NCBI GenBank assembly: GCA_000733355.1 | Contig: JNVV01000027.1 | Coordinates: 392,940-456,939 of the forward strand | Length of the DNA stretch: 64,000 nucleotides | From: Falciphora oryzae | Lineage: Eukaryota; Ascomycota; Sordariomycetes; Magnaporthales; Magnaporthaceae | Direction: 5' to 3' | In this document: positions 1 to 32,005 of the stretch, piece by piece | Layout of the letters: each line of letters begins with the position of its first letter | Position numbering within the stretch: the first letter of the stretch is position 1 | The notes under the pieces: model-generated | What the model was told of the DNA's origin: nothing | Database searches by the model: none | Seen by the model: the letters and a program-made list of their open reading frames with translations, nothing else | Made by a program: the position numbers and the translations under genes

Positions 1-68
1 CGCCGATGAGGGTGGTGATGCAGATCCCGGCCGGCATAGCCGGGGTACCCCCTCGATCCTTTGCGACA
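1..68 (-). repeat. 3' LTR of the copia element (partial, cut by the window edge)
   Basis: These bases match 31938-32005 at 67 of 68 positions. On the minus strand the LTR begins TGTCGC at base 68 and runs leftward out of the window. The next internal bases (69-80) are a purine-rich AATTGGGGGGTG on the minus strand, a typical polypurine tract for plus-strand priming, which fixes the LTR boundary. Confidence 0.8.
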
Positions 69-573
69 CACCCCCCAATTGGTGCCCGGAAGGCACCGGC
101 TGTAGTAAACAAAGGAGAGCTAAAATGAAAGTATCACGAGCGTTTTTGTCCTTTTATTAGGTGCTCGTTTTGGCGTTTTCTAGACCTGACCCGAAGCTCC
201 GGGTGCTCGTTAGTGAGCCTGGCCCAGAGGGTCGGCGCCTTTCGTGGGGGCTCCTTCCCTCCTTAAAGATCTGGGTGCTCCTTCCCTTTTGGTGCGCACC
301 CGGCACCTGCCGTTGGTTGCGCGATATTAAAAAAGGTTCTACCGTTAGCTTTTGCCCAAGCGTTCCTTTTTCCTCTCCTTTTTTCAGCAGCAACCAACAA
401 TTTATACGTAATAATACCCTCAACCCCTCCAGCGGTAGGCCCAGGCTAACTTTTATGCGTTATTGGAGCCCAAACCTTAAAATAACCGTAAGTTTATTTT
501 ATTCCCGCGTTTCCGGGCGCGCGCGTGCGTGCGCGCAACGAGTTAAAAAACACCTGACGCTAACTTGTTGCAA
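69..573. other. Copia 3' noncoding region, probable 5' flank of the antisense cargo gene
   Basis: No convincing coding sequence is seen. It holds the copia polypurine tract at 69-80 and a GC-rich, alternating CG/CA stretch near 515-540. It lies between the 3' LTR and the first ATG of the plus-strand cargo gene at 574, so any promoter of that gene is expected here, but no clear TATA box is visible. Confidence 0.5.
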
Positions 574-769
574 ATGTTTGGCAATACCAAATCTCGGCAA
601 AAGAGGGCGGCGGAGCGGGCGCAAGCCCGTAAGCAGTAAAAGCTTTATACTTTTTAAATTGCGGTTGTAAAAGTGCGTTAACCATATTGGGCGTATAAAA
701 AGCGTTTGGATTACGACCTAGCGTTAGCTTTCCAAGCCTCGCAGGCGGAGGCTTCGCAGCCTCCGCTTG

Positions 770-860
770 CAGTAGCAGCAACAGCAGCAGCAGCAGCAGC
801 GCCGCCGCCGCCGCCTACCGCGCCTCCGGCGCCGCCACCGCCCGCGCGCCGCCCGCTGCC
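770..860 (+). repeat. Trinucleotide (GCA)n/(GCC)n tract
   Basis: Runs of GCA and GCC units at about 770-860 encode Ala and Pro in the frame of the cargo gene. The tract is much more GC-rich than the RIP-affected DNA around it and is likely length-variable. Confidence 0.6.
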
Positions 861-1073
861 ATCCGGGCGCCCGCTCCCGCCGCCGCCGCAAAGGGCGAGG
901 TATTCGGACCTCGTCCCCTCCGCCGCTACCGCCGTCGCCTTCAAGGCCCTGGCCTTTATTAAAAACACGTCCGTTAAGCGGCCCTTTTCCGTCGTTCCGT
1001 CGGGAATGTCCCTTTCGTTCGAAAAGGTGCGTTTTCCAATCCCTAACTGGGTAAACGACGAAGGGAGGGTCCG

Positions 1074-1359
1074 TGTAACAAGGGGTCAAAGACGGCTTGG
1101 AGAAAGAATCTCTAGATTGCAGATAATCTTTCTATGGGCTCAAGAGATGCTTGAGGAAGAAGGAATCTTTCATGGAGGACATAGGAGATGGCAGGGTTTA
1201 TATAAACCACCCTGTAATCCGTACGAAGTATTAAGTACATGATTCACACTGCCCCTCCGGCCTTCGGCCTTTGGGCCTCGGGGCCGTTGGGCACCTATAC
1301 CGGTTCCCGGACCTTCTGTAAGGCCAATTAGGTAAGTCCACAGGTTCTTCCGTGTAACA
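1074..1359 (-). repeat. Gypsy I 3' LTR
   Basis: 286 bp, TGTAACA at the left end and TGTAACA at the right end, matching 7884-8169, 12373-12667 and 19086-19380. It contains a TATATAAA-like box near 1198-1207. The pol reading frame runs into it and stops at 1329-1331. Confidence 0.92.
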
Positions 1360-4300
1360 CTATCCTCCTCTTCCTAAGGCGCGTCTCGAAACCTTTTAAA
1401 GCCCGCTTAAGGGATGCGGCTGTGCCTATATCTTATAACACGCGGGGGTCCCTAAGCTTATCGGGGTTAAGCCGATAAAAGGCAACAACGTGTTACTTAA
1501 ACCCGTCGGTATCAAAATGCTCCCAAAGTTCCCACGTCCAATCCTTTTTGCGTAAGTAATCTTCCCATCGGACAAAGTAACGAACCTTCCCGCCTATATC
1601 CATAAAATCCATAACCTTTTCTACAACGAAATCTCCTATAACCGAAAAGGCCTCCCGCAATACCTAGTCAAGGTCAGGTCGTGCCTAAATGCTAAAGCGG
1701 TAGGGTTCGATAAAAAACACGTGGAAAGCGTTATAAATTTTCCAAATTTTAGGCAAAGCCAATCGTACCGCCGTAAAAGAAATAACCTTAAAAATCCGGA
1801 AGGGCCCGAGCATTTTAGCATCAAATTTTTTAGTAAGGCGACGGGTCTTTATATACCGGGCGTTTAACATAACGAACTATCCTTCGGTGAAAACCGGCGA
1901 AGGGCTTCTCCTTTTGTCAGCCCAATACTTCATTCGTTCCCGGGCTTTTTCGAAATATTATTTAACTTCTTCATGCACCTAGGTTATCCAATGCCGGTAG
2001 AATTGGCTTGCTAAATTGCGTACTCGTTCTAAAAGAAGGGGATTATTAGAAGCTAGGTGGTACCCGTAGTTAGCGAAAAAGGGAGTAATAAAGGTACTTG
2101 CCGAAAATATATTATTATAAGCAAATTCCGCCGTAAGTAATAGCTTAACCCAGTTAATTATTTCGTAATTTACGAAAAACCTAAAGTAGGCTTCCAAGCT
2201 TTAATTAAACCTTTCGGTTTATCCATCCGTTTAAGGATAGAAAGCAGTGCTCATTCTTAGCTTAATACCTACCAAACGGAAAAAATCTTTCCATAAATAG
2301 CTCGTAAATCTAAAATCTTTATCAAAGATAATATCCAGAGGCATACCGTGCAATCGCCAGTATTCTTTAGCGAAAATGCGGATAAGGTTATCCGACTTCT
2401 TACCCTCAACTTTAAAAGGAACGAAATACGCCATTTTAATAAAAGGGTCTACCATTACCCAAATTGAATCGCACCCATCGCTTAAAGGGAGGTCCGTAAT
2501 AAAGTCCATAGCCACCGTTTTCCAGGGCTGGTAATGCAGCTCCATAAGTTATAAGGGTCCAAAAGGGGCATGCCTTAAGGCCTTATTGCGTTAGCACTCC
2601 AGGCATCCCCTTACGTATTCCCGGACTTTTGCCTCAATATTAAGCCACCAAAAATGCCAAATAATTAACTCGAAGGTTTTATCCATACCCATATATCCAG
2701 CGACTTTTATATCATATTCGGACTCGAAGACTTCCTTTTGCAAAGCCTCCGTTAGCACCCACAATCTTTCCTTATAATAAAAAAGGCCATCCTCAACTTC
2801 TTCACCCTTTTCGGGCTTCTAAAGGCGGCCCTGGTATTCGGAATCCGATATACCAACTTGCTTAACTTTATCAGTAAATTCCGTAACCCACTTTAGGACT
2901 GGAATACTGCAAAACCGGCCTAAGGACAGGAAAAAAAAAAGTGCTCCTTACGGCAAAGCTTCTTCCATAAAATTATCTCCTTATCCTTCCAAAGCCGAAA
3001 TTCTTGCTAAAAAATGTTTTTCTTGCAAAATCGTCGTAATCGGCTGATCCTCACTCCTCCCTTTCTCAAGCTTGTACTAAAATAATCTCGACAGCACATC
3101 AGCCTTTTCATTTTGCTTTCCTAGCCGGTAATTAATCATAAACCAATAACCAACCAGCTATTATGCCCATCTAGCTTGCTTTCAATTAAAAACTTTAACC
3201 GTCAGGAAATATTCGAAGTTCCGGTAATCCGTATAAACCTCTATCCGGTACTTTACCCTTTCAAAGTAATACCTCCACCTAACGAAGCAATCAACGACCG
3301 CCAAAAATTCCTTATCGTAAATTTTATAGTTAATTTCGGCGGGCGACATTTTACGTAAATAGAAAGCAACGGGGTATAATTTATTAATTTCGGGGTCCCT
3401 TTGGAATAACACCCTTCCAAAGGCAAAATCCAAAACGTTTACTTCAACTTATACTGGAAAAAATGGGTCGAAATGCCGGAATATCGGAAGCGAAACGAAA
3501 GCGACTTTAAAGGCTTCAAAAGCCTATTCCATTTCGGGGGTCCATCGCCATTAGCTTTTAAGCAAAGCGTTAGCCGTCGTTATAAGCCTAACGATTCCTA
3601 AAAACCCCTTAATAAACCTCCTATAAAGGTTAGCAAAAGCAACGAACAACTGGGAGTTTTTAAAGCAATTGGGGGCCTTCCATTAGATAATAGCATCAAC
3701 CTTGTCCTTGGACATTGCGATGCCCTCGGGTCCTATTATATAACCAAAAAACTCGACTTCGTATACCCCCCAAACGCATTTACAAAGGGCCACAGCCAGG
3801 TTATGTTTAATAAAGCGGCGAAGCACCTCCTTTACCAAACTATCGTATTATTCCTTAATCTCTACGTATATTAAAAGGTCATCCAAATACACAAAGAGCC
3901 CGGCATCGATAAAATCCATAAAAATATAGTTCATCATACTTTAAAAAGTGGCGGGGGCGTTAATAAAGCCCATAAGCATAACCGTGAACTCGAAAACGCC
4001 GTATTTGCAACGGAAAGCCGTAAACCATTCGTACCCTTTTTTCATCCGAATCAGGTTAAACCCAATTTTAAAGTCGATCTTCGTTTTCCATTTGGCATTC
4101 CGAAATCGATCCTAAAGCTCCGTAATAAACGGGATAAAGCACCAAATCGGAATCGTTTTAGCGTTTACGTCCCTATAATCAACCACCACCCTTAAAAGAT
4201 CGAAAGGGTCTTTCTTTTCTGCAAACATAAAAGGCGAACTATTAGCAATTTTGCATAACCTAACCTTGCCGGTTCGTATTTGCTTTTCCAACCACGGCTT

Positions 4301-5074
4301 TAAAACGTCCAGCTCTCTTTAGCTCATTTGGTATAAAGGGCCATAAGTTAATTGGGCTCCTTCCTTTAAATAAATTTCGTAATCCCAAAACTAATAATCG
4401 GGAAAACGGGTAACGGCCGCTTCCGTCATAATAAAAAAAAACTCCCTAAACTCCTCTAATACCGATTCGAAGCCGTCCGAATCCGCTTTAGTCACTTCCT
4501 CAAAGGAAGAAATACCGTACCCGTATTTAATAACGGCAATAATCGCGGGCTCAACTATTTTCATATTCTCCCGAAAGCGTAAACCTTTAAGCGGCCGTAA
4601 ATCCTATAGCTTTCGGGCCCGGGGCTTATTACACTTCCAACATTTGTCCAAATCCATCCGGATATCCCAAAGGTCGCGATCCAGTAACCCCAGCGGTAAG
4701 TATTACCTTTACCATACGAAAAGCAAAATAATATCGCAATCTGGATCAGTAGGACTAACTTCGAACGTTTCCGTAAAATAATACGTTTTGTACCGGAAAG
4801 TAACGTCAACGACTAATTGCTTTCCGGCCTCTAATTCGATTTTCCCTAAAAAAAAGGTCATCACGCGAAGGATAACTCTATCAACCAGGTAACCCAGGAA
4901 TTGCTTCGCTATTTTATCCGACATAACCTTCGTATCGCTACCTCCATCCAAAAAAACCCGGACAAGTATCTCCTTCGATCCCCTCGCCCGTATATACATA
5001 CGGAAAATCGGTCTTGCGAATTCCTTATCCGTTAAAAGCCTTCGGGACTAGTTAGCGGCGATAATCAATAGTTA
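1329..5074 (-). pseudogene. Gypsy I pol (protease-RT-RNase H-integrase-chromodomain), RIP-broken
   Basis: Readable blocks, in transcription order: aspartic protease with LDGGSDTKV (4709-4999); reverse transcriptase with YLDD at 3878-3889; RNase H (3182-3433); integrase core with MDFITDLPLSDG (2231-2545) and its C-terminal part (1979-2197); and a chromodomain running into the 3' LTR, with a TAA at 1329-1331. Many TAA and TAG codons interrupt the frame, mostly where the gypsy II copy has CAA, CAG or TGG. The gene is not functional. It would have encoded the enzymes for cDNA synthesis and integration, with the chromodomain steering insertion to heterochromatin, as is known for chromoviruses. Confidence 0.88.
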
Positions 5075-7519
5075 TCAACAGTCATCATCCGATTCCGAAT
5101 CTAATAGTTTAAAAATTCGTAATTCGCTCGGGGCTTCTAAAATAAGGCCAACGATTTTAGCCTTTTTAACCTATAGCTATTCCTCCTATTCGTCCGTTAC
5201 AAAGCGTTTAAAAATAGATTTGGCACCGGCCGTTTTTGCTGGTATAGGAGGGAATTCCTTACCGTTAGTGTCCTTTTTAGCGTAACATTCTAACGTATAA
5301 TGCCCTTCTCTTCCGCAGCGCCAGCAATCGGCCTTAGCCAACTTTCGTACGTCGATATCGCGTTATTCGATTCCTTCGAATGCCAATTTGGTAGTAATCC
5401 AAATGTTATTCTTTTTATCGGCGGCCTTTTTATCATTAGCCTTCTTTCCGAAACGGGAGCTTAAGGATGGACTTAGGTTCCTATCTTTGGAGCCCTTACC
5501 GCGGCGACGGCCCGCGTTCAAACGCTCCTAATTCGAAACGGGCTCGTCTTTTCCCTTTTCCTTTTAACCCGTTCCTTACATCAAAACCTTAATAAAAGCT
5601 CTATCCGCGAGCTTTTGCTCGTAAATAATCCCTGCCTTTTAAAAAGCTTCAAAAAATTCGGCGTCGTCCGTAAAAATTCAACCCTTATTGGCATATACCA
5701 AATCGGCGATACCTTCGGGTAGCAAAAATCGGACGAAATCCCGGAAGGTCGTACCGGTCCATCGGGTAATAATATTATACTGCCCCAACTCCGTTAAGTA
5801 ACCGACGATATCGCCGTTATACTTTAAAAACCGGAGCTTTTTGGCATCGGTTCGTTCCTCGTTAAAATCCTTATAATGTTCCTCCAACAACGAAACGTAT
5901 CCTTTCCAAAAATCTTAAACGTTCATGGATTCCAATAAACGTACCCTGGCCACATGCCATTAAAAAACGGCTCCTTTTAGGAAAAACCCAACCCAAATAA
6001 TACGGTACGGATCACCCGTAAAACTTTGGGGGCAGGCGTTCATATAAGCCTGTACCACGAACCACCAGTCCTTAAATTTGGTACGATCCCCTTCAAAGGC
6101 GCTAAGGGCTTTAAATTGCACGGGGTTAACCATAAAAACCGTGCCCTAGGGAATTCCCCTAAAGGGTTACTGTCACGGGACAAGACCAAGGTTGTACCAC
6201 GTGCACCACGAAGGCAAAAGAGGAACGTTGTTGTAGCTGGGACTACAACCGTGCGAGGTCCTTATCAAGGGATCGCACCGTGACAGTTACGAAGCCCTAT
6301 CGCCTAGCGGAAAAAGTAATCGGAACAACCGTAACCTTCGGTTAAAAGGTCTCGGTAGCAAGTTATTATCGCTATCATCCGATTCCAAAAAATCCGAAAA
6401 ATCCGGATTACCGGCAGGTTATCCTTGTATCCGTCCCGGCGTAATACTTATGCGGGCTTAATTTACTCGGGTTTATAAATCCCTTAAGGTCCGTTCCATT
6501 TATGCGGCTAGCAAACCGGCGTTTAATCCGACGATCCGTTCCCGCGCCATCGAACTTATTTATTTAAAAGCGGAAGGCGGAAATATATCGGTATCAACTT
6601 CGGCCCTATCTTCCCTAATAAGTACGTTTTAGGGAGAGCTTCGGTTTGATCCGGGTTGTTGAGACGATCGTTGCAGGGCCGAGAGTACAGTAGCTAATTT
6701 AAGCCGCTTTCCTTATGCTATAAGCCGCCGGCTTTCCCGTACGGCGTCCTTAACAAGCTGGCGAATTTAGGCCAATATACGTCGCTCGGCTTCGGTGAAG
6801 GCCTCGGGCGAAACATGCTCCTTGGTTAAAAGATTCTAGATCTAGGCATCCTTATCGACGGCCCAGTTAGTAACTCCCTTTTCGAAAGTGGAAAATCGTG
6901 CTTATAGGTTTTGCAAATGGTTTTGTTAGGCCCGAATAACATCCCGAAGCTAAACTAGGGCCTCCGAACGGGTCTGTTGCTCTTTAGCCAAAATAGCAAC
7001 CGTAGCCCAAACTTATTATGCAAATACCTAGCTTTCTCCGATAATCCGTTACCGGAATGCCTTTTGTTAGTCGGCGGAAGCGATTAGGCTTTTTTTATAT
7101 AAAGAAACGACGGTATTGTACGCGTAGGTGATATGGTTGTAATAGGTCCTTATTTCGCGGATTTGTTCCCGATCGGCGAGGATTTCCTGGCTTACATTTC
7201 GGAATAAGGCCGAAATTGCTTCGTACGTACTAATAAATTCCCGTTGGATTTCGGTTATCCAGCTTGGGGGGTTCTAAAAGCGTCCCACGGATATAAGGGC
7301 TTATTGTTCGAAGGCTATGCTGAAGGGGGGTACCGAATACAAGATAAGTGCCCCCTAATCGTCAAGCATAAAAGTATCTTAACGTTTTTCCGGTATAAAC
7401 CGGGAGGGGCCTTCGGGGGCTTTTCCGGCCGCTTTTCCAAATTAGGCCAGCATCGTATTGGCAAATATACCGGAATCGCTAAGCAAAAAAAGGGATTCCG
7501 TTAATTCCCGGGCCGGCAT
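5075..7519 (-). pseudogene. Gypsy I gag, RIP-broken, ends at an in-frame UGA
   Basis: Starts near ATG 7517-7519, at the same place as in gypsy II. The central gag homology is legible at 5678-5890, and the CCHC zinc-knuckle region lies at about 5290-5350. The frame ends TGT-TGA at 5075-5077 and then continues directly into pol. Several in-frame stops make it a pseudogene. Gag would form the nucleocapsid of the virus-like particle. Confidence 0.8.
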
Positions 7520-7883
7520 ACCAAAATCGCTTAATAAAGAAAAAGATATCGTTACAAACAAAATAAAAAGGTCCGGTTCCCTATATTCCTAGGCAGCGTA
7601 AAATCCCAAACGTACAAAGGAAATCTTCCGGCCTCTTTTAAAATCCCGTAATTTCGCCAAAGCGACTAAAAAAGTAAAACGACCCTCTTATATATTCTTC
7701 TCGCTTTCACCCGTTCGAAAACACCGGTAACAGTCAAAATGTCTGTGGTATGGCCCCAAGGTTTTATTCGCTAAAAAAAGCAACAGTTAGGGTTTAAAGG
7801 TACCGACTAACAAGGCCTCTCCAAAGCTTAAAAGGAAAAATAATGAAGCTTCCGTCAGGGGGCAAAGCGTAAAAAAAATTATT

Positions 7884-8169
7884 TATAACAAAGGGTCAAA
7901 AACGGCTTAAAAAAAGAATCTCTAGATTGCAGATAATCTTTCTATGGGCTCAAAAGATGCTTGAGGAAGAAGGAATCTTTCATGGAGGACATAGGAGATG
8001 GCAGGGTTTATATAAACCACCCTGTAATCCGTGCGAAGTATTGAGTACATGATTCACACTGCCCCTCCGGCCTTCGGCCTTTGGGCCTCGGGGCCGTTGG
8101 GCACCTATACCGGTTCCCGGACCTTCTATGGGGCCGATTAGGTGAGTCCACAGGTTCTTCCGTGTGACA
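7884..8169 (-). repeat. Gypsy I 5' LTR
   Basis: 286 bp, the partner of 1074-1359, starting TATAACA (RIP form of TGTAACA) and ending TGTGACA, followed by the TSD GTCCG at 8170-8174. I could not identify a tRNA primer-binding site next to it on the minus strand (7850-7883). Confidence 0.92.
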
Positions 8170-9048
8170 GTCCGCCCGGCGGACGTAAACAGCGAAAAGG
8201 AGGGAAAAAAAAAGGAAAAGGAGGAGGAGGTTAACGAGATCTTATGGTCGCCTCGGGCAGACCGATAGAGTTGGGGTAAACCCCCGTTCCCGGTAAGTTT
8301 TGCGTGTTTATGCTATTTAAGCATAAGCTTATTAGTTTAAGTGCTTCCAGCGCACCCGACTGCTTTTCCCAAGCTTTACCCCCCTTTTTGTGCTAACTTT
8401 CCTTTATAGTTTTCGCGCGGCCGTATTCGCGCCCCCGTTTCCCGTCCCCGCCGGCCTGCCCTCGAAAGGGGCACCGTTATCGGGATGCCTAAGGGGGCGA
8501 CCCCTCGGGCTGTCCCGTGCGACGGCTGCACCCGCGCGTACCTCACGGGGTACCGCGGGCTTTGCTCCGACCGTCCTATGCGCCGTAAACGCAAGGACGG
8601 CAAAGCCCCTTGTTGTTAGTAGTGCTCGGCGGGTCACTTTTGTAAGCCTCTACCTGCGGACGAGACTTTCCGTAGTAGGGCTATCCTGCTCGGAAAGGCT
8701 TTCGCCCGTAACGATAGGACGGAGGTTCGGAAACTCCGCATTATCGTCCGCGATTTGATTAGGCCGTATCCGCGTGGTCATTTAAAGACAATCACGCAAA
8801 AAAAAAGCGATTCGGAAAAGGAGGAGGTGCGCGCGAAGCGTCCCCGCAAAACAAGGGATACTCCTCGGAATTAAGGCCCGAAAAGGAGACGGGATGACGA
8901 TAATGACGATAAGGGAGGCGCGGTGGGAAATATGATGCTGGCCGGGTATCGTCGCTTTAGCGACGACTTTCTAGCTGGCATCGCTTTTATAGGCGCTAAT
9001 TACCGCCGCGAGCGCGGTATTTAGCCCCCCCGCGCTTTAAAAAGCTTA

Positions 9049-9139
9049 AAAAGGAAAGGGAAAAGGAGGAGGGGAATAGGGAAAAGGAAAGGGAAAAGGA
9101 GGAGGGGAATAGGGAAAAGGAAAGGGAAAAGGAGGAGGG
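9049..9139. repeat. 33-bp tandem repeat, about 2.8 copies
   Basis: The unit is a 12-bp purine block (AAAAGGAAAGGG) followed by a 21-bp purine block ending GGGAATAGGG. The period of 33 is a multiple of three, so in the plus-strand frame of the cargo gene each unit reads as an 11-residue Lys/Arg/Gly repeat. The repeat lies just past the TAG at 9022-9024 that I used as the gene's end. It is not a CRISPR array, as there are no spacers. Confidence 0.75.
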
Positions 9140-9349
9140 AAACGTTTACGGCTATAAAAAGCCGTTTATCTTTTATTCGTTGTTTTTGGGCTGCAAAGCC
9201 CGTCTCCACCTCTTCGTGCTGCTGCCGCCGCCTTTTTTACGTTGTTTTTTTTTTTTTTTAAAAAGAAAATGCATATTGGGTTGTTTTGCTCGTTTGTGCC
9301 TTGCCGAGCTTCCGTTAACGTAGTTTCCTTTTCGTTACTTAACCGAGCT
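9140..9349. other. Gap between convergent cargo gene and copia pol
   Basis: About 200 bp with a 13-base T run near 9244-9258 and no supported gene. Transcripts from the cargo gene (+) and copia pol (-) would meet here. Confidence 0.4.
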
Positions 9350-12300
9350 TTAAAAAACCTTTCGGGCGGCGTTGTGCAACTTTAGGAGTGATTTGAAATG
9401 CTTAAATTTGGCTTTCGATAGTGCTTTGGTTAGGCCGTTTGCTGGCATCTCGGAGGTTTTGAAATAGGTAACTTTAAAGGACCTTTTCGAATGCTTTTAA
9501 CGTAGCCACATGTTTTGGATATTAACGTATCGGAATGCGGTTGCAATACGGGCGTTATTTTATACTACTAATCGAATCGTTTGCTTATTATCGCAAAAAA
9601 TCCTCCAAAGCTCGCCGAGCTCCAGCTGCACGTTTTGGAAAAATCTTTTTAAAGCTATAGTTTTTTTGGCCACTTTGGCGAGCGTTAAAAGCTCCGCTTC
9701 GGTGGTTAAGGTTGTAACGGTTGCTTGTTTTCCTGCCCTCCAATTAACCGGTCCTTTAAAAAGGAATATAACGTAGCCTTTTAAAAAGTGCCTTATTTCG
9801 GGGTCGTTTGCATAAAAAGCATCTCCCGTAATTCTTAGGTGCTTAAACTTTCGGCTCCGACTATACTTAATAGCTAAAAACCTCGTTCCGTGCAAATATT
9901 TGATCGTTTGGTTTGCAGTTTTGTAATGCGTAAGCGAAAGGTTGGTTAGGTGCTTAGAAAGCGCTACGGTTGCGTACGCAACGTTTGGTTTAACCATAAT
10001 TGCCGTGTAAAGTATCGACCCTACTTTCTCTTAAAAAATTAGTACCTTTTGCGCAATAGCTATGTTTAAATGCTTTGTAAACTCCTTAACAGGGAGTAGG
10101 ATGCTTGGAAAAACTGCCTTATCGTCCAGGTTAAAGCGGTGGGCGATTTTTTCGATATAAAAGTTGTACAGTAGGTTAACAGTACGGTTTTCCCTGTTCC
10201 TAACGATCCTTATGCCTAAAAACCACTTTAGCGGACCTTTTCGCATTTCGTACTTATTACGGAATCTTTTTAATACGCGTTATGCTTTGCCCGCATGCTT
10301 TTTACGGTAAAAAAGCACGATATCGTCGATATAAAAAAGCAGGAAGATTTGGCGCGTTTCGTCCATAAACAAGCAGGGCTCGTTTGCAGCCGCTTTTAAG
10401 CCGAATTCCCTAAAGGTTGCTGCCAATTTTCGATATTAAAGTAAGGGAAAGTTTCGCATTCCGTAAAGGGCTTTTTAAAGGCGTGCTACGTAGCCTGGTT
10501 TCGTAAAGCCAGGTGGAAGGTTAACGTAAACTGGCTCGTGGTTTGTACCGAGCTTTGCGTATAAGAACGCGTTGCTTACGTCCATTTGGTGCGCTTCCAG
10601 GTCGAAGTAAGCTATAATCGCCATTATAATTTTGAACGTTCGAGCAGCGAGCGTTGCGGCGTAGGTGTTTTGTAGCGAGTTAACCGGTTGTTGGTTACCC
10701 CTAACCATTGCTTTCGTTTTAAACTTTTCGAAGTATCCGTTTTCGTTAAATTTGTAAGCAAATACCCATTTGATATCAAACGCCCTGTTAAGGGCTTTAG
10801 CGCGCGGTAGTTTAGCCTAAATGCCTTTTTTTATAAACCTTGTCATTTTTGCCCGGGCGGCTTTTTTAAATTGGGGTCCCAACGGGTGCTTATCAAGCTT
10901 TTTCTAGGATTTGGGGACGCTTTATAAAGCATCCCGGTATATCCTTTTGCCTGCCTGGTATTTGAGCCTGTTTGCCGTTTTTAAAGTTATGGCCGCAACG
11001 ACCTCGTAAAGGGGACGGTGGCCTTTAAAGCTTTCTGCTATCGCTTTTTAGTAATTAAGCAAATACGTGCAGAAAAAGTCGTCCTACCGCTATTTAAGTG
11101 ATTTCCCTTTAAAGGGTTGTTCTGTTAGCTCTTTGCCTTATAGCGTAGCGAACACGTAATTGATAAGGTTCCTTTGCTAATTGGCCTTCCTTTTTAGGGA
11201 TCGTTTTTCCTTTAGCTTTTACCTCCTCGCCGCCTTCGAGTCCCTAACAAACTGCTAAGCGGTTAGCATTTAAAAAGCAGGTGGTGCTTGCGCCGGTGTT
11301 TGTGGAACACTCGTTAACTGTTGCGGCGCAAGTAAAAAAGGCCGTTGTTAATCCTTTTTAACTGGTTAATTGTTGGTTTTAACCACGATTGTGTTTCGGA
11401 TTTCCGGGCCGTTATCGGGTTCCGGAGTGCTCGGTTGTTGTTCCCGCGTATCCGAATATCGTGAAGGAAAGCGCGTTATAGGTAGCGAGCGCTAACGCCC
11501 TTTTAGCGGCTTATCCTTTTCACCCCCCAGATTTGTAGGGCTGTTACCCCTTATTTTGCTAAGGCCGCTGTTAAAGCCATTATTTAACTCCTAACTGCGC
11601 ACCGGCTCCTTTGTTTGGCTGCCTTTTGAAGCATTTGGAGTCGGGATTTTTTACGTGGTTTAACGTCGCACGTTTACGGCGTTTTCCGCGTTTTTTTAAA
11701 CCAGTTCTACAACCTGCTTTTTAAAAGGTTAGTCGTCGACGATCTCTTTTAGCGCCTGCACCCCCGAATTTTAACCCGGATGCTCGGTTGCGGTAATAGG
11801 TGCTTCCGGAACTTTTGGCGTTAAAAATCCGAATGCATTTGCAAATCCTTTTCGGGATTAAAAAGGCTCCTTCTGCTTATCCATTGCCAAAAGCATATCG
11901 TATATTTTTTAGGCGATAGGAAGCTCCTTTCCTATTTTTGAAAAAAAGGTTCCTTTATTAAAACGCACGTCGCGGGATATTATAATACGTGCTTTATTCG
12001 GTACTTAGATCCTATAGATGTACGAGGCTTTGTAGCCCACTAGGTATCCGATATGCCCGCGCGGTTATACTTTAAATTCGGTGCGTTTATTGTTTTTGGC
12101 TTTTTCCGGGTTAAGCACGTAAGCTCGATAGCCGTAAGCATAAATCCCGTCCCAATCCGGGCGCAAATCCGTTTTTAGCCTTTTAACGAGCTCCGGGGTG
12201 TAATAACGGAAATACCCCTTAAACTAGGCGAGCATAACTTCGTTAAGCGAACGCATCCTTTTCAAAGACGAAAAGCTCATGTTCTTAAGCCAGATGGCTG

Positions 12301-12372
12301 CGTATACGGCTTCCGGCTAGAGATTTTCAGGAAGGTTGGCGCTTTGCCGCATGCGTATCGAGCGAATAATAA
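9350..12372 (-). pseudogene. Copia pol, C-terminal half (integrase end, RT, RNase H)
   Basis: Read leftward from 12372 this continues the integrase reading frame broken by gypsy II at 19381. Downstream lie reverse transcriptase blocks (10475-10708 with the QMDVSNAFLY block typical of copia), YIDD at 10322-10333, the RNase H region (9560-9997 with a CDNK motif) and the copia C-terminus with EMPANGLTKAL, ending at a TAA at 9350-9352. The frame carries many TAA/TAG codons of RIP type, for example TGG to TAG in the integrase. It is non-functional. Confidence 0.85.
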
Positions 12373-12667
12373 TGTAACAAGGGGTCAAAGACGGCTTGGA
12401 GAGAGAATCTCTAGATTGCAGATAATCTTTCTATGGGCTCAAAAGATGCTTAAGGAGGAAGGAATCTTTCGTGAAGGACATAGGAGATGGCAAGGTTTAT
12501 ATAAACCCTTTGTGATCCGTGCGAAGTATCGAGTACATGATTCACACTGCCTTCCGACCTTCACCGCTTGGCCTTAGGGCCGTTAACCGCCTATGCGGGT
12601 CTTCGACCCTCCGTAAGGCCGACTCGTAATGCCGACTAGTTAGGTCCACGGGTTCTTCCGTGTGACA
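12373..12667 (-). repeat. Gypsy II 3' LTR
   Basis: 295 bp, TGTAACA to TGTGACA, the partner of 19086-19380 and homologous to the 286-bp gypsy I LTRs. It holds the last codons of pol and its TAG stop at 12636-12638. Confidence 0.92.
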
Positions 12668-15600
12668 CTATCCTCCTCTTCCTAGGGCGCGTCTCGAAAC
12701 CTTCCGAAGCCCGCTTAAAGGATGCGGCCGTACCTATGTCTTGTGGCACGCGGGGGTCCCTAAGCTTATCGGGGTTAAGCCGATAAAAAGCAATAACGTG
12801 CTGCTTAGATCCGTCGGTATCGAAATGCTCCCAAGGTTCCCACGTCCAGTCCTTTTTACGTAAGTAATCCTCCCACCGGACAAAGTAACGAACCTTTCCT
12901 CCTGTATCCATAAAGTCCATAACCTTTTCTACAACGAAATTTCCTATAACCGAAGGGGCCTCCCGCAATACCTGGTTAGGGTTAGGTCGTGCCTAAATGC
13001 CAAAACGGTAGGGTTCGATAAGGGATACGTAGAAAGCGTTATAAATTTTCCAGGTTTTAGGCAGGGCCAATCGTACCGCCGTAGGAGAAATAACCTTAAA
13101 GATCCGGAAAGGCCCGAGCATTTTGGCATTGAGTTTTTTGGCGGAGCGACGGGTTTTTATGTGCCGGGCGTTTAACATAACGAACTGTTTTTCGGTAAGG
13201 ACCGGCGAGGGGCTTCTCCTTTTGTCGGCCCAATGCTTCATTCGTTCCCAGGCTTTCTTAAGGTGTTGTTTGGCTTCTTCGTACACTTAGGTTATTTAAT
13301 GCCGGTAAAGTTAGTTTGTTGGATTGCGTATTCGTCCTGGGAAAGGGGGATTATTAGAAGCTGGGTGGTACCCGTAGTTGGCGAAAAAGGGAGTAATAAA
13401 GGTACTTGCCGAAAATATATTATTATAAGCAAATTCCGCCGTAAGTAACAGCTCGACCCAGTTAGTCATTTCGTAATTTACGAAAGACCTAAAGTAAGCC
13501 TCCAAGCTTTAATTAAACCTTTCAATTTATCCATCCGTTTGGGAATGGAAAGCAGTGCTCATTTTTGGCTTAATGCCTACCAAACGGAAGAAATCTTTCC
13601 ACAAATGGCTCGTAAATTTAAAATTTCTATCAGAGATAATATCCAGAGGCACACCGTGCAATCGCCAATATTCTTTGGCGAAAATGCGGATGAGGTTATC
13701 CGACTTTTTACCCTCGATTTTAAGGGGGACGAAATGCGCCATTTTAGTAAAGGGGTCTACTATTACCCAGATTAAATCGCACCCATCGCTTAAAGGGAGG
13801 TCCGTGATGAAGTCCATAGCCACCGTCTTCCAGGGCTGGTAATGCAGCTCCATAAGTTATAGGGGTTTAAAAGGGGCATGCTTTAAGGCCTTATTACGTT
13901 AGCACTCCAAGTATCCCCTTACGTATTCCCGGACTTTTGCCTCGATATTGGGCCACTAAAAGTGCCGAATAATTAACTCAAGGGTTTTATCCATACCCAT
14001 ATGTCCAGCGACTTTTATATCATGTTCGGACTCGAAAACTTCTTTTTGCAAGGCCTCCGTTAGCACCCACAATCTTTCCTTATAATAAAGGAGGCCATCC
14101 TCTACTTCTTCACCCTTTTCGGGCTTTTGGAGGCGACCCTGGTATTCGGGATCCGATATACCAGCTTGCTTAACTTTGTTAGTAAATTCCGCAGCCCATT
14201 TAAAAACAGGAATACTGCAAAGCCGGCCTAGGGACAGGAGGAAAAAAGGTGCTCTTTACGGCAAAGCTTTTTCCATAGGGTTATCTCCTTGTCCTTCCAA
14301 GGCCGAAATTTTTGCTAGGAAGTGTTTTTTTTGCAAAATCGTCGTAATCGGCTAATCCTCACTCCCCCCTTTCTTAAGTTTATGCTAGGGTAATCTCGAC
14401 AGCACATCGGCCTTTTCATTTTGCTTTCCTAGCCGGTAATTGATTATAAACTAATAACCAGCCAGCTGTTATGCCTATTTAGCTTGCTTTCGATTAAGGA
14501 CTTTAGCCGTCAGGAAATATTCGAGGTTCCGGTAATCCGTATAAACCTCTATCCGGTGCTTTGCCCCCTCAAGGTAATGCCTCCACCTAGCGAAACAATC
14601 AACGACCGCCAAAAGTTCCTTATCGTAAATTTCATAGTTAATTTCGGCGGGTAACATTTTGCGCGAATGGAAAGCAACGGGGTGCAGTTTGTTGGTTTCG
14701 GGGTCCCTTTAGGATAGCACCCCTCCAAAAGCAAAGTCCAAAGCGTCTACCTCGACTTGCGCCGGGAAAAACGGATCGAAATACCAAAATATCGGAAGCG
14801 AAACGAAAGCGACTTTAAAAGCCTCGAAGGCCTGGTCCATCTCGGGGGTCCATCGCTATTAGCTTTTAAACAGGGCGTTAGCCGTCGTTATAGGCCTAAC
14901 AATTCCGGAAAACCCTTTAATAAACCTCCTATAAAAGTTGGCAAAGCCAATAAAGGATTGGGAGTTCTTAAAGCATTTAGGAGCTTCCCATTGCACAATG
15001 GCGTCCACTTTATCCTTGGACATTACGATGCTATTGGGTCCTATTATATAACCAAAGAATTCGACTTCGTGCACCCCCCAAACGCATTTGCAAAGGGCCA
15101 CGGCCAAATTATGCTTAGTAAAGCGGCGAATCACCTCCTTTACTAAATCGTCGTATTATTCCTTAGTTTCGGCGTATATCAAAAGGTCATCCAAATATAC
15201 AAGGAGCCCGGCATCGATAAAGTCCATAAAAATATAGTTCATCATGCTTTGGAAGGTGGCGGGGGCGTTAATAAGGCCTATAGGCATAACCGTAAATTCG
15301 AAGACTCCGTATTTGCAACGAAAAGCTGTAAGCCATTCGTAGCCTTCTTTCATTCGAATTAGGTTAAACCCGGTTTTAAGGTCGATCTTCGTCATCCATT
15401 TGGCATTTCGAAATCGATCCTAAAGCTCCGTAATAAGCGGGATAAGGCACCGAATCGGGATCGTTTTGGCGTTAACGTCCCTATAGTCGACCACCACCCT
15501 TAAAGGATCGAAGGGGTCTTTCTTTTCTGCGAACATAAAAGGCGAACTGTTGGCGGTTTTGCATAGCCTAACCTTGCCGGTTCGCACATGCTTTTCCAGC

Positions 15601-19380: not shown

Positions 19381-21178
19381 GATAACGTCCTGTTTTGCGC
19401 GCTCTATTTTGCTATTGGGTTCGTAAGTATCCGGCGGTAGGTTTTCCAGCTCGATACCTATAGATTCGCACCACCTTTAATACTATGTTTTCCCTTTATA
19501 CGCGATTAGGGTTAGCTTGTTATCATGCCGGAAAATAGCGACCTTTAGGCTGTACTAACGGGCGACCTAGGCTTCTTAATTGATTAGCAAAGGCGTAAGT
19601 TTATCAGCACTCTTGCCGGATATCGTATACCCCCAAAACTTGCTATTAAAATCGTTTTTTAGTAGTAGAAGGACCTTTTGCTTGTTTCCGCTGGATGGAA
19701 AGTGGAATAGGTCCAATTAGACCTTTTAAAAGGGCTTGGGGGCCGGGTCCATTTGGCGTTGAGAGATGACCGCTTTGGCATGCGTTATTGCATAGTCCTC
19801 GCACTCGATCTGCCGTATCCCTTTGATTTGTACGTTCCGAGCGCTTTAGACCATGGCTTCGAATGCTTGTTGATTTAAATGTCTACTTCGTAAGTGCTAT
19901 AAGTGTGCCGTATTTTTTTTGGGCTTGGTAAAATCGATGTTAGGGCGCCAGGTCGGATTGTCGCGCATTTGTTGAAAGTATTTGCTGCGTATGGCTATTA
20001 CGAGCTTTGGGGGGAACTGTTCGAATGCTTTTAAAGCACGGCTATAGGAGGAAAAGTGCTTGTATTCGAAAAAAACAACATTGTTTTTACGTTCCAATTG
20101 CTTGACGAGGAGGCTCGAGTTTAGGGGCCTTATGCGGAGAGTGCAGTTTAGGCTATAGAACTACACGCTTGCAGCCATAAGCTTTGCTTCGGAGATGATA
20201 TTGATATAAAAGCCATCCATAAATGCGACGTTATTAAGCACCAGGTCCTTGTCGCCGAAAAGCGATCCTTTAAAAGTGCGCTTCCCTTTGCCTAATATCG
20301 GGAGCGTTTAGGTACCGCACTCTACGGTCTCGCTGCCGTCGTTCGGTATAAAGGATCCTAGGTCCAGTTTATTGATGGAGTTAACCAGATGCATTGCACC
20401 GCAGTTATCCAAAAGCGTGCTGTACCAGTGCGCGTTATGCACCGGGCTGATCGTTGAGTATACCGCATTCGCGTTGCCAGTGTTTTCGAAGATTGCCGCG
20501 TTAATATAGCTTGGTTTGGGCTGGTTTTGGTTATTTCCTAAACTCTGCTGCTACTTCCCCCAATCGGAATTGGCGAAGCGATTAATCTCCAGCAGGGTCT
20601 TTTTAAGGCCTTTCTACTGTGGCTTTTCAAGTTCCTTTTTAATCGCTTTGACCTTTTGCTCGGTAGGGGGTTTGCCGCGCATCGCCGACCTTGTAAAAGC
20701 GTGCTGTATGGTCCAGTACCACTCTGGCTTTTATGAGTGATTTTTGTGACTGGCTGGGCAATTATATGTTTTGCCGTTATTCCTTTAAGATTTTCCGTTG
20801 CGTTAGGAACTTCCGTTCCTTTGCTTCGAATGCTCGTTAGGGGATGCCGAGCTTCCGCCCAAAGTGGCATAAACCGGGTTCTTTTTGCCCCCGATTTTCC
20901 AAATAGAATTTCGGTATTGGAGTAAGCCGAACTAGTTAACTAGGGTTTCAAAAGTGTTGTTACTGGCACCAATTGCAAGGTCCTCGGCATAGCGCTTAGC
21001 CCAAAAGGCCTGGAAGCGCTCCACGGCATCCAAGAACTCCAAGGCGCCGTTGGCACCCATGATCTAAGAGATCTGGTGGATCTGGGCCTGCCCGAACGCG
21101 AAGCGGAATTTCACGAACCATTTGTAGGTATCCGTTGTGCTTTTTGCTTTTTTAAAGGCGTTGTTATACTGCGCAATC
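19381..21178 (-). pseudogene. Copia gag C-terminus, protease and integrase N-terminal half
   Basis: Reading leftward from 21178, the frame continues gag from 29022 across gypsy III (WVI then AQYNNAF). It passes a damaged knuckle region, then a copia-type protease motif LLDNCGAMHLVNS at about 20380-20440, in which Asp and Gly-Ala are kept. A GKGKRTF / VAFMDGFYINIISEAKL block follows, then the integrase core (19400-19660), which is cut by gypsy II at residues AKQDVI. RIP-type stops are scattered through it. Pol resumes at 12372. Confidence 0.82.
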
Positions 21179-28489: not shown

Positions 28490-29016
28490 TGTAACAGGCT
28501 TCCGCCCTATTATAGCTAGCTACAGTAATGTTAGGCTTAGAAAAGGGGGGTTTTCGCAGGGAGGTTTTAAAGGTTCAGCAGCTTAACAGTTGTATTCGTA
28601 CAGGGCTTAACAAGTTTATGGTATAGGTAAAAACAAAAACGATAGCTTGCTTTCCGAACCTCTTTTACAGGGGGTTTTTCGGGCCCTCTTTATGCTTTAG
28701 CTTTCCGTCCGTCCTTCGGCTGTCGTCGGCGCGCCTTTTCCTCCGTGGCGTCCGTTGGGGCTTGCTTTTCGGTTGTTATCGGCACACTGCTTCCTCCGCG
28801 GCGTCCGTCGGAGCCGGATGTGTTTCGTCCCTTTTAGGGTTCCGGGCCGGGCTGATTTGCGGGGGCTGATCGGCGCGCGTGTCGCAAAGTTAAACTCTCC
28901 TAATCCGCACATCCGTTAGGGCTTGCGCCCCCCCGGCTACCACCCGGAGGCCTCCCTTATGGTCACCGGTGGCGTCCTTTGCGGCTGCTGGCCATGCTTC
29001 TGTATGGGGTGTTACA
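28490..29016 (-). repeat. Gypsy III 5' LTR
   Basis: 527 bp, TGTAACA to TGTTACA, the partner of 21179-21705, followed by the TSD CAATC at 29017-29021. Confidence 0.93.
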
Positions 29017-29021
29017 CAATC

Positions 29022-29538
29022 ACCCAATCGTTCGAAAGCGTTGCATTAAAAGCGAGCAACAGCTGCAAACATTTAACTGTTCCTTTAAAAAAGGCCCATC
29101 CTTTAATATTCGCCTTTTGCATGGCTTCGGTGAGAACGGAACGGTCGATAAAGGTAAACACCTATTTGGTAAGTGCTATAAGCTATTTATCGGAAACGCT
29201 CGCCTTATTGCTGGTTTTTTATGCTTATTGCGCATTTGTAAAGCGTTTGTTAAGCTCATTTTAAGTAGCGAAAACCGGATCTTTTAGCTCGGGATGAGGC
29301 TTTCCAGCCTTTTGTCCTTCCTTATCCCAATTTTTAATGCGCTGGCTTTTTTCGATTTGGGTAAGCTTTTTCCAGACGAGCAGTTGTATTTCGTGTGCTT
29401 TAAGCGTATTATCCCTATCTTCCCTTTGCATTTGCTCCAAAGTGGGAAGGTTAAAGTACGCTTGCTCGGTATCTGGCTGCAGGTCAGGGTTGACCTTGTG
29501 CCAAACGGCGAGCATTTGAACGTTTTACCGGAAAACCG
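29022..29538 (-). pseudogene. Copia gag, middle segment
   Basis: Open mostly without interruption at 29261-29515 (MLAVWHKVNPDLQPDTEQAY onward). On its right it joins the segment at 31404 across the Fot1 insertion, in frame (HIWFTVF then R-stop-NVQML, the stop being a TAA of RIP type for CAA). On its left it continues across gypsy III in frame. Capsid-like gag protein of the copia element. Confidence 0.75.
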
Positions 29539-29540
29539 TA

Positions 29541-31401
29541 ACGTGGTTCATAAGCGAGTCGCGCACATAAGCGAATCGCGCATTTTCTAATACGACGCGT
29601 ATCTCCCACTTCCAACCTCAATTGCTCAACAACCACAAATAGTATCGACATTAAAAAAAGCTCGGATTGCCTTTGTTTTACGGGCAATCCAATCTAATGC
29701 ACAATTAAATATGCGAAAGGCAGCCAAAATCTACGATATTCTTCAATCCACATTACGCGACCGACGCGCCGGCCGACCTACTCGACGCGATAGTATACCC
29801 AAATTACGGAAATTAACGGAATCCGAAAAGGAAGCGCTTATTAAATATATCCTCGAGCTGGATTCTTACGCATTCCCTCCCCGGCGTTCTGGTGTTAAAA
29901 ATATGGCCAACCGATTGCTCGCCGAACGTAACGCGGACGCCGTTAGCAAGTGCTAGGTCGCGAACTTCGTTAAACGCCGCGCAAAGCTCGGCATACGCTG
30001 GATTCGAAAGTACGACTACCAAAGGGCCAAATGCGAAGATCCTAAGCTCGTTTCCGCGTGGTTCGACCTTATGCGGAACATTGTAGCCAAATATAGCATC
30101 CTGGATAACGACATTTATAACTTCGACGAAACCGGCTTCCTTATGGGCATAATCGCCGCCGTTATAGTTATTACAACATCGGAAAGCCGTAGTAAAGCAA
30201 AGCTGGTTTAGCTTAGTAACCGGGAATGGGCTATAATTATCTAAAGGGTTAATTATTGCGGTTGGGCGATCCCCCTTTTCATTATCGTTAAAAGGCAATA
30301 CCACCTAGCCAATTGGTACTCGGAAACCGACCTCCTACGCAATTAGGTCATCGCAACAAGTTCTAACGGGTGGACTACGAACGAACTCGGCCTGGAATGG
30401 ATTCAGCATTTCAACAAACACACTGCGTCGCGTACGAAGGGCCCCTATCGTTTGTTAGTGCTAAACGGATACGAAAGCTACCACTCGACGGATTTCGAGC
30501 TCTATTGCCAAAAACACAACATCATTACGCTTTGCATACCTCCGCATTCGTCTCACTTCTTTTAGCCGCTTGACGTTAGGTGCTTTAGCCCAATAAAAAA
30601 GGCGTACGGTCGACAAATCGAAAACCTAATAAGGTCGCACGTTAACCACGTGACTAAAGTCGAGTTCCTTTCCGCGTTTAAAGCGGCATTTTTTAACTCC
30701 ATAACCGAAGGAAACATCCGAGGAAGCTTTCGAGGGGCTGGCCTTGCTCCTTTCAATCCGGATTCGGTTTTAAAAAAGCTGGATGTGAGGTTACGGACTT
30801 TAACGCCCTTAAAAACGCCCCTAAACGACCCCGAACTTTGGACCTCCAAAACGCCCAGGACAGTTAGGGAAGCAACTTCGCAATCTAAACATATCAAAAT
30901 TCGAATTTCCAATCACTAGGGCAGCTTTCCAACTTCTATTTATACGGTTATAGACCAAATTGCAAAAGGGGCGAAAGCGATAATGCATAAGGTAGCCCTT
31001 TTCCGAGCCGAGGTAACCACGCTTAAAAAGGCGAACGAGGCACTAAGTAAACGCCGGAAGGCTAAAAAAACACGTGTCCGACTTGGAGGGTCACTTACTA
31101 TCAACGAAGTACGAAATGTTTTGGACTAGCAGGAGCTGGATGGATAGCTATAGCAAGAAATGCGCGACCATGGGGGTTAGGAAAGGAGGGCGACGACGAC
31201 TCGTTAGCGATATGGCACGTGCGGCAAGACCGGACACAATGCGCGCACCTGTCAGGAAAAAGTAGAAATGTCCGATGTATATAGTTCAGAATAGTTTGAA
31301 TGGATTGCTGGCGTTGTTGGGTTGGCATGCGCGTTGATTGACCGGAGGTCGGGTGTGGGTGCGCGACTCGCTTATATGCGCGACTCGCTTATGAACCACG
31401 T
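29541..31401 (+). mobile_element. Fot1/pogo-type DNA transposon (Tc1-mariner superfamily)
   Basis: 1861 bp, flanked by TA at 29539-29540 and 31402-31403, the TSD of this superfamily. Terminal inverted repeats of about 42 bp start ACGTGGTTCATAAGCGAGTC; the few mismatches are RIP-type transitions. Each repeat holds two tandem copies of a roughly 17-bp motif (CATAAGCGAGTCGCGCA). It encodes a damaged transposase on the plus strand. It is inserted in copia gag, which it splits in frame. Confidence 0.93.
29645..31265 (+). pseudogene. Fot1/pogo DDE transposase, RIP-inactivated
   Basis: One frame runs through the element with several TAG/TAA codons. N-terminal helix-turn-helix (about 29650-29800, RKAAKIYDILQSTL), CENP-B-like second DNA-binding part (29800-30000), then the catalytic part. 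The first Asp is present (YNFDETGF, about 30118-30141). The second reads VLNGYESYHS at about 30460-30490, where Asn stands for the expected Asp and Tyr for His, both RIP-type changes. The third Asp is kept (PPHSSHFF-stop-PLDV, about 30540-30575). The C-terminus carries a CCHC-like knuckle (CGKTGHNARTC, about 31220-31255). There is no ATG at the expected start. Family length is about 540 residues, which fits. Confidence 0.88.
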
Positions 31402-31403
31402 TA

Positions 31404-31690
31404 AACCATATGTGCCATTGGTATTTGTCCCGCAGGATCCCCGTGGGGATCAATCCTGCATCGTTGTCAAACATGGTGGGTGCTTCTAACGCACGGGAAC
31501 GTTTTAAGGTGCGCTCGGGAAACGCCGGGTCTGGTAACAGGGGTTGGGAGTGGAGGTCCGAAAAGGAGGTGGCGATAGCTTCAACGTTGGTGATCGGTAA
31601 ACTCGTGAGCGTAAAATGGGTGTTCTACACGGGCCTGCCGCGCACTGGTGAAAGTCTTTGTGTGTTTGATGAAGGTAGGTAAGCGGAGGT
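31404..31690 (-). pseudogene. Copia gag N-terminal segment
   Basis: Legible from about 31560 down to 31404: a Ser/Pro-rich start, then MFDNDAGLIPTGILRDKYQW, reaching the Fot1 insertion at HIWFT. One in-frame TAG near 31634 may be RIP-derived. The true start codon is not clear. Base composition here is close to normal, so RIP was light. Confidence 0.65.
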
Positions 31691-31699
31691 AGAAGGGGC

Positions 31700-32005
31700 T
31701 ATTGCAATGCAACCTTTAAAATGCGGAAAAGGGGTTTAAAACGCCGGGCTTATAACTATTGCAAAGTAGAGGGTATGCAGTAGAAGGATTGTTTTGATTT
31801 CTACCTTTAAGGAACTAATAGGAAAGCGCCCGAGGGTCTACCACCCTCGGGGTCTTTATACACGAGTGCGCAGTAGGAGTGGAGAGCCCTTCTCGGCGTC
31901 GCCGAGTGCTCTGTAACTGCTTGTTGAGCACCTGCGACGCCGATGAGGGTGGTGATGCAGATCCCGGCCGGCACAGCCGGGGTACCCCCTCGATCCTTTG
32001 CGACA
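31700..32005 (-). repeat. 5' LTR of the copia element
   Basis: On the minus strand it begins TGTCGCAAAG at 32005 and has a TATAAAG box at about 31856-31862. The first 68 bases are duplicated at 1-68. The inner end (about 31700) is not fixed, because I found no clear CA end followed by a tRNA-complementary site. Confidence 0.7.

Follow-up and report, generated by a model that had tools for sequence, protein, structure and literature searches.

Copia elements are usually described as carrying gag-pol only, and a locus in the fungus Falciphora oryzae raises the question of whether some of them keep a further gene. The locus lies in a 64,000-nucleotide (nt) stretch of contig JNVV01000027.1 (assembly GCA_000733355.1, positions 392,940 to 456,939 of the forward strand), called here the window, where a first-pass annotation had described a spliced plus-strand gene inside a minus-strand copia retrotransposon, between the end of pol and the 3' long terminal repeat (LTR), and had called it cargo. 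Searching the genome (50.2 Mb in 123 contigs) for other copies and for relatives led us to consider it very probable that fungal copia elements have here an accessory gene, which is located antisense to the element, after the end of pol and before the 3' LTR, and is predicted to give a spliced mRNA of its own.

The placement was confirmed: the gene is read on the plus strand, between the copia 3' LTR, which ends at about 68, and the minus-strand end of pol. An insertion of a gypsy element (gypsy I) inside the gene was confirmed as well; the site is uninterrupted in other copies of the same copia family, called here family 1. Alignment of these copies indicates that the antisense gene has two coding introns and probably a third intron in its leader. 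The predicted parts in the window are as follows.

488..573, plus strand: probable 5'-leader intron, GTAAGTTT ... CTAAC ... CAA in the window
574..635, plus strand: coding exon 1, with the ATG start; 62 nt in 9/10 copies, ATG in 9/10
636..698, plus strand: intron 1, 63 nt in 10/10 aligned copies; donor and acceptor mutated in the window
699..1073, plus strand: coding exon 2, first part, Ala/Pro-rich, without in-frame stop; ends at gypsy I
8175..8292, plus strand: coding exon 2, second part, with a single stop at 8266
8293..8409, plus strand: intron 2, 117 nt, GTAAGT ... TGCTAAC ... TAG
8410..9024, plus strand: coding exon 3, with the Cys cluster and a conserved C-terminal block; terminal TAG at 9022-9024, internal stops at 8617, 8620 and 8872

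Splice sites of the coding introns were counted in ten copies, namely the window, L026, L028 to L034 and L036 (the last exon is cut in L034 and L036); left out were L027 and L038, cut on the 5' side, L037 and L039, where the match leaves out most of the gene, and L035, which diverges too far for the anchors to be placed. Intron 2, the only intron proposed at first, was borne out, with GT in 10/10 and AG in 8/10 copies and a length of 117-119 nt. Intron 1 starts with GT in 9/10 copies (GTRAGT in 7/10) and ends with AG in 5/10. For the leader intron, L035 included, the donor GT is found in 11/11 copies and CAG in 5/11, over a length of 78-86 nt. Several splice sites are thus damaged among the copies. 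The first-pass annotation had obtained 618 nt, exactly 206 codons, by removing gypsy I and one target copy; the arithmetic holds, but the segment is not wholly coding, since 636-698 is an intron, and it was because the 63-nt length leaves the frame unbroken that this second coding intron went unnoticed. Exon 2 (409-559 nt; 493 nt in the window with one target copy counted) has a length of 1 modulo 3 in 8/10 copies, the exceptions being L028 and L030, which fits selection on the frame, although the region has many three-base repeats and these alone would also favour the pattern.

The in-frame stops proved fewer than first thought. Seven had been listed, all attributed to CAA or CAG codons altered by repeat-induced point mutation (RIP), a claim that does not survive the comparison of copies: the TAA at 637, 655 and 679 are intronic, 637 lying in the donor of intron 1 and 679 in a GTTAAC branch-like site, which leaves four internal stops in the window (8266 TAG, 8617 TAG, 8620 TAG, 8872 TAA). 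Position 8617 reads TGG in the other aligned family-1 copies (GTA in L035), so that stop is not a CAA/CAG change, and position 8872 reads CAA in L029 and L031 only. L029 has zero internal stops across all exons, and in both L031 and L029 the same exon 3 frame is open over 205 codons; L031 lacks the ATG and is interrupted by stops in its first two exons. Among family-1 rows, C/T or G/A differences make up 535 of the 582 polymorphic columns, and changed C residues are enriched in both CpA (23%, background 12%) and CpT (36%, background 20%). The damage is RIP-like, without strict CpA preference.

Is the gene a regular part of the element? A DNA search of the genome with window 8166-9345 gave 17 matches, the window itself being one. 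In all 11 other copies aligned there, gypsy I is absent and the sequence of window 1-1073 joins that of 8170, with about 50 unaligned bases at the junction in L016 and only the last 238-275 bases of 1-1073 matched in L011 and L022. The divergent copy L019/L035 has an alignment gap from 856 to 8207 filled by only about 250 bases, so the gypsy element is absent there too. Both LTRs were found in four copies of about 8.3 kb, at 98.8% (L026), 98.0% (L029), 92.0% (L031) and 93.9% (L035) identity, and in all four the gene lies between the 3' LTR and pol. With L029 exon 3 as query, 16 matches were obtained, 15 of them in 13 family-1 places, the window and L035 included. Twelve of these 13 places (C35:9958 was left out) were used for distances to RVT_2, the copia reverse transcriptase domain, and eight of the twelve are tail-to-tail with an RVT_2 match at 1,016-7,001 nt, the longest distances containing insertions. 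Since copies without the gene region would be undetectable by this search, these counts are not a full census. Other copies with the gene at the same place and orientation had been named as the check to make, and all 11 copies that reach the site have it, which supports the view that family-1 copia regularly includes a predicted antisense protein gene with introns.

The gene is found beyond family 1. A match at C100:24825, 38% identical to L029 exon 3, was the entry to family 2, for which searches gave 56 rows by protein (some of them from families 1 and 3) and 43 by DNA. In the family-2 copy L058 the two LTRs (1500-1802 and 8977-9279) are 95.4% identical and pol is on the minus strand; the gene, with an ATG at 2329, adjoins the 3' LTR and lies between it and pol. 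In the family-3 copy L057, the gene model runs from an ATG at 2035 to a stop at 2781 with introns at 2325-2378 and 2452-2514, and conceptual splicing gives three exons and 209 unbroken codons (209 amino acids). Beside it stands a gag-pol frame of 1114 amino acids with weak RVT_2, rve and gag_pre-integrs matches below the cut-off; no LTR pair was found within the 8 kb examined. RVT_2 is above the cut-off in family 1 and in some family-2 copies, which identifies the elements as copia and not Ty3/gypsy.

We then placed the family-2 and family-3 genes relative to copia RNase H, using 52 places merged by hand from 56 + 109 rows (leaving out second-exon rows, same-place pieces, family-1 rows and the weak or small C33:360745, C27:467621 and C1:2282611) and 66 of the 86 RNase H rows. 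In 48 of the 52 places the gene is tail-to-tail with RNase H at 213-904 nt, and in 33 of these 48 at 576-588 nt. For one of the four remaining places, C82:100802, the unused rows include a short stretch of RNase H (C82:100094-100219:+). Conversely, 18 of the 66 RNase H places have no family 1-3 gene match. These figures bear on the simplest alternative, an open frame that arose by chance in a GC-rich 3' untranslated region and whose splice-like signals would be coincidental. The four in-frame stops of the window and the presence of other long frames on both strands of the region speak for it, but the gene recurs in full-length family-1 copies, and the near-fixed distance from pol in 48/52 places of two other families already contradicts it, so that we regard this explanation as scarcely credible.

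The elements that share this gene differ widely in pol. Family-3 pol matches pieces of family-2 pol (L058) at 50-75% identity, and against the family-1 copies L026, L029, L031 and L035 it gave no tblastn match at 1e-5. Comparison of the family-1 protein with those of families 2 and 3 by hhalign gave 93.6% and a score of 51.7, whereas 200 column shuffles never exceeded 24.4 and a reversed profile scored 16.3. The predicted protein has basic stretches before or around six Cys arranged in two CxxC...C halves, and the block that follows the Cys cluster is paired across families by hhalign, with an acidic tail in family 3. The spacing is C-x2-C-x11-C-x15-C-x2-C-x5-C in family 1 (L026 and L031) and C-x2-C-x13-C-x9-C-x2-C-x5-C in family 3. 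The Cys cluster noted at first is real, except that the extra Cys of its "CC" is an Arg-to-Cys change in the window; the second-half cysteines are lost in L029 and L035. The intron lies upstream of the cluster in family 1 and downstream of it in families 2 and 3. Altogether, the data suggest that distantly related copia elements have kept an antisense gene for a long time, as a presumed helper or regulator.

The spacing differs from that of the fungal Zn2Cys6 binuclear cluster, which is C-x2-C-x6-C-x5-12-C-x2-C-x6-8-C, and families 1-3 have no Pfam match to Zn2Cys6 (PF00172). Matches to SQHop_cyclase_N (E 0.02-0.15), Phage_GP58 (0.53) and Bflower (2.3), all under the Pfam cut-off, were set aside as chance. 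Protein databases were queried with family-1 exon 3 (5689 candidates, E 0.001) and with the family-3 protein (675 candidates, E 0.01), and neither query gave a match; candidates were limited to 1.75 times the query length, which makes full-length family-1 relatives of about 390 amino acids invisible to the exon 3 query. A control query with family-3 pol matched 84 proteins, many of them named from Pyrenophora, Hirsutella, Talaromyces, Colletotrichum and others, and therefore the protein database does contain fungal copia. A search of PDB with P0004 gave no match. Among viral contigs, 12 stretches fitted a gene pattern and none codes for a relative, and pol had no match there.

A similar six-Cys layout is found in the Pfam family DUF3716 (PF12511), for which we consequently searched the genome. 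There were 28 matches, none in families 1-3. Seven of them, all over the Pfam cut-off, are antisense and tail-to-tail with copia RNase H at 350-364 nt, and all seven fall among the 18 copia places without a family 1-3 gene match, leaving 11/18. They are as follows.

G000:C61:3601-3762: DUF3716 by copia RNase H
G000:C55:173254-173415: DUF3716 by copia RNase H
G000:C55:177396-177557: DUF3716 by copia RNase H
G000:C17:136723-136875: DUF3716 by copia RNase H
G000:C35:69151-69237: DUF3716 by copia RNase H
G000:C30:252281-252442: DUF3716 by copia RNase H
G000:C4:858848-859000: DUF3716 by copia RNase H

The C61 domain (E 8.7e-9) has the layout C-x3-C-x11-C-x10-C-x2-C-x8-C. Families 1-3 gave no match to DUF3716 at E up to 1, nor up to 10, and a profile of families 2/3 could not be matched to the C61 domain; because of this failed direct comparison, we put forward only as a hypothesis, on the grounds of position and layout, that the DUF3716 gene and that of families 1-3 are homologous, and independent acquisition is possible. 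Six further DUF3716 matches, in open frames of 220-720 amino acids away from copia (C37, C10, C59, C38, C13 and C1), look like host genes. Short matches in frames of 75 amino acids (G000:C34:305517, 306134, C40:259, C89:93432, C94:32058, C69:157680 and C61:58923), four of which share one score and none of which adjoins a copia match, are perhaps another repeat family. A wider proposal, which we rate as tentative and somewhat doubtful, is that six-Cys proteins of the DUF3716 kind form an ancient antisense multi-intron accessory class of fungal copia, kept or exchanged among deeply split lineages (families 1, 2, 3 and the DUF3716-bearing ones). The proteins would regulate their own element from within the nucleus or counteract its silencing, and at least some of the host DUF3716 genes would be either the original source or domesticated copies. 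A literature search for DUF3716, with many subscription papers outside its scope, found no paper using the word.

The host-like DUF3716 frames make a Cys-rich host source conceivable, and could thus favour a recent capture, in which a host gene picked up by family-1 copia would be carried passively. Against this stand homologues at the same place and on the same strand in copia elements with pol sequences so far apart that tblastn finds no match at 1e-5, as well as the frame-linked conservation described below; nor did the genome searches yield any homologue clearly outside copia, leaving aside the four of 52 places without RNase H nearby and a weak match at C1:2282611. The latter (C1:2282611-2282868) is 28% identical to the family-3 protein at E 0.035. 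Because homologues share their place across copia families whose pol differs greatly, the term "cargo", where it implies a recent capture, is not supported, and we hold such an origin to be improbable.

If the gene is an accessory gene of copia, its frame should bear traces of selection. The ratio of nonsynonymous to synonymous substitution rates (dN/dS) was computed for exon 3 of L026, L028, L029 and L031 against L035 (three of these four for the minus-frame comparison); L030, L032, L033, L034 and L036 were left out, and one transversion count took all nine copies plus the window exon 3. In family 1 the gene frame gives 0.33-0.37 and the other plus frames 0.94-1.02. The number of stop codons set aside was 3-4 in the gene frame and 9 in the minus frame that shares its wobble positions. 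Between families 2 and 3, the Cys exon gives dN 0.46, dS 2.65 (saturated) and dN/dS 0.17, and the last exon dN 0.375, dS 0.97 and dN/dS 0.39, while the four frames of the last exon other than the gene frame and its wobble-sharing minus frame give 0.89-1.62. Transversions between these two families fall 27/25/50 over the three codon positions (p=0.003), mainly in the last exon. Transversion divergence of family-1 exon 3 is 4-5%, as low as in the best-conserved parts of pol and below that of LTR, leader and exon 2, and gene conversion could also cause this low value. As a separate observation, third-position transversions place L035 exon 3 (G000:C62:240497-241274) nearer to family 1 than they place several parts of pol, perhaps as a result of gene conversion or template switching between subfamilies.

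A dN/dS near 1 in undamaged copies had been named as the result that would count against the gene. In the copies compared here the gene frame gave lower values, but tests on transversions and on the antisense frame, given below, weaken the support. In another explanation, the region acts as an antisense RNA, for example in small-RNA silencing or as a brake on copy number, while its protein frame would be incidental. Other elements are known to have antisense transcripts that serve no coding role, according to the accessible text of PMC7264820, and transversions in family-1 exon 3 are few at every codon position, the third included. An RNA without coding role would not account for the unbroken frames of L029 and of the L057 gene, for a Cys pattern kept across families while the DNA is not, for conserved splice sites or for a gene-frame dN/dS <0.4, and we therefore judge this explanation quite unlikely, even less probable than a recent capture.

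Several points weigh against the reading of the gene as a protein-coding accessory gene of copia. The gene model is a prediction from sequence, as are the proposed function and zinc binding, and no homologue was found in 5.8 billion proteins, within length and word limits on candidates. Transitions have damaged most copies, and even L029, free of internal stops, has a mutated intron-1 acceptor. Four of 12 family-1 places and four of 52 family-2/3 places have no copia domain nearby. When the Cys are masked, the hhalign score drops to 22.5, within the shuffle range, and the link between families therefore rests on the Cys pattern, its near surroundings and the shared position. The wobble-sharing minus frame of family 1 has a dN/dS of 0.33-0.39, and in the last exon of families 2/3 this frame is again similar to the gene frame (0.39 against 0.45). 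The 24 transversions between family-1 and L035 exon 3 have no codon-position bias (6/11/7, p=0.42; 8/11/5 in another alignment), and so it is transitions that carry the signal in family 1, and these are also produced by the RIP-like process. Five parts of pol gave strong bias (28/15/63 and 15/4/47), weak bias (20/11/26) or none (16/15/18 and 23/8/15). Between families 2 and 3, the position bias comes from a single exon (last exon p=0.004, Cys exon p=0.17).

The copia element that houses the gene in the window is on the minus strand, takes up much of 1-32005 and spans about 32 kb in total, owing to later insertions between its pieces.

1-1073, 8170-12375, 19382-21178, 29013-29541 and 31402-32005, minus strand: copia pieces, with later insertions between them
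1..68, minus strand: inner part of the copia 3' LTR, aligned with the final 69 bases of the LTR of L026 (250 bp), the remainder lying before the window start
9350..12372, minus strand: 3' part of copia pol (RNase H end and reverse transcriptase), RVT_2 match G000:C27:403057-403728:-
19382..21178, minus strand: next part of copia pol, beyond gypsy II
29013..29541, minus strand: further 5' part of copia
31402..32005, minus strand: copia 5' end, including the 5' LTR at 31757-32005, 98.4% identical to the L026 LTR
1074..8169, minus strand: gypsy I insertion, inside exon 2, LTRs 95% identical

The 3' part of pol, whose boundary at 9350 was taken from the first-pass annotation, is tail-to-tail with the antisense gene. 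The 5-bp target duplications that flank gypsy I lie at 1069-1073 and at 8170-8174. Also inserted in this copia are gypsy II (12373-19394, its target copy included), an element with repeats of about 590 bp (21130-21715 and 28435-29025) inserted at 21178-29013, and a further insertion at 29541-31402.

What could such a gene do? Our best reading is that a spliced antisense mRNA would encode a regulatory protein that binds zinc and acts in the nucleus. This mRNA would derive from a short pre-mRNA driven by an antisense promoter, which would lie within or close to the 3' LTR or leader, and the introns would survive in the gene because the RNA copied in retrotransposition is that of the other strand. 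The Cys pairs of the protein would fold around zinc, and the protein would enter the nucleus and bind nucleic acid or chromatin, thereby regulating expression, silencing or integration of the element, a role that has been proposed for the antisense proteins of Grande and Retand elements and is known for HBZ of human T-cell leukaemia virus type 1 (HTLV-1). HBZ of HTLV-1 is a bZIP protein made from a spliced transcript. It belongs to an animal retrovirus, and the likeness, an antisense accessory gene with a nuclear protein in the case of HBZ (accessible text of PMC11963269), is one of description.

The closest parallels are the antisense genes called aORF-3R of the plant Ty3/gypsy elements Grande (gene23), RIRE2 and Retand (TRP28 domain), which, in the accessible text of PMC11963269 and PMC7264820, have the same place and orientation, occur in most copies and are suspected of a DNA-binding or nuclear role. 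By the same measures, the gene studied here lies between pol and the 3' LTR in family 1 (L026, L029, L031, L035) and family 2 (L058), is antisense to gag-pol in 48/52 family-2/3 and 8/12 family-1 places, and is present in most copies of family 1 (11/11 reaching the site). The plant elements are gypsy, and Retand has TRP28 (PF04195), whereas here we deal with fungal copia and a six-Cys protein predicted from two coding introns and a probable leader intron; the word "intron" is absent from the main texts of PMC11963269 and PMC7264820. Among pol-3' LTR cases, the accessible text of PMC7264820 also cites brtn, an antisense gene of the Botrytis gypsy element Boty, which is named in that of PMC8365987 and PMC4227169 too. 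By description, brtn of Boty (Botrytis cinerea, Sclerotinia) resembles the present gene as an antisense gene in a fungal LTR retrotransposon, but Boty is Ty3/gypsy and the elements here are copia (RVT_2). PMC8365987, in its accessible part, reports further additional open reading frames in Botrytis gypsy or copia consensus elements, and a copia case may be among them. Our literature search, with many subscription papers outside its scope, brought up no recognised fungal copia case among the matches listed; given brtn, the view that genes of this kind are unknown in fungal elements in general is not supported. As to DUF3716, the likeness lies in the six-Cys layout and in its presence in antisense genes at seven additional copia places, and the difference in the absence of any score for families 1-3 and in the failed profile comparison with C61.

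The accessible text of PMC7264820 urges attention to antisense and spliced transcripts of such elements. The finding indicates that a third gene can be retained in fungal copia, in one position common to elements with very different pol, and it gives context to DUF3716, a domain of unknown function. In genome annotation, genes of this kind, whose introns resemble those of the host, may be mistaken for genes of the host. For the elements themselves, the gene is a concrete candidate for how copia elements may manage their transcription or silencing.

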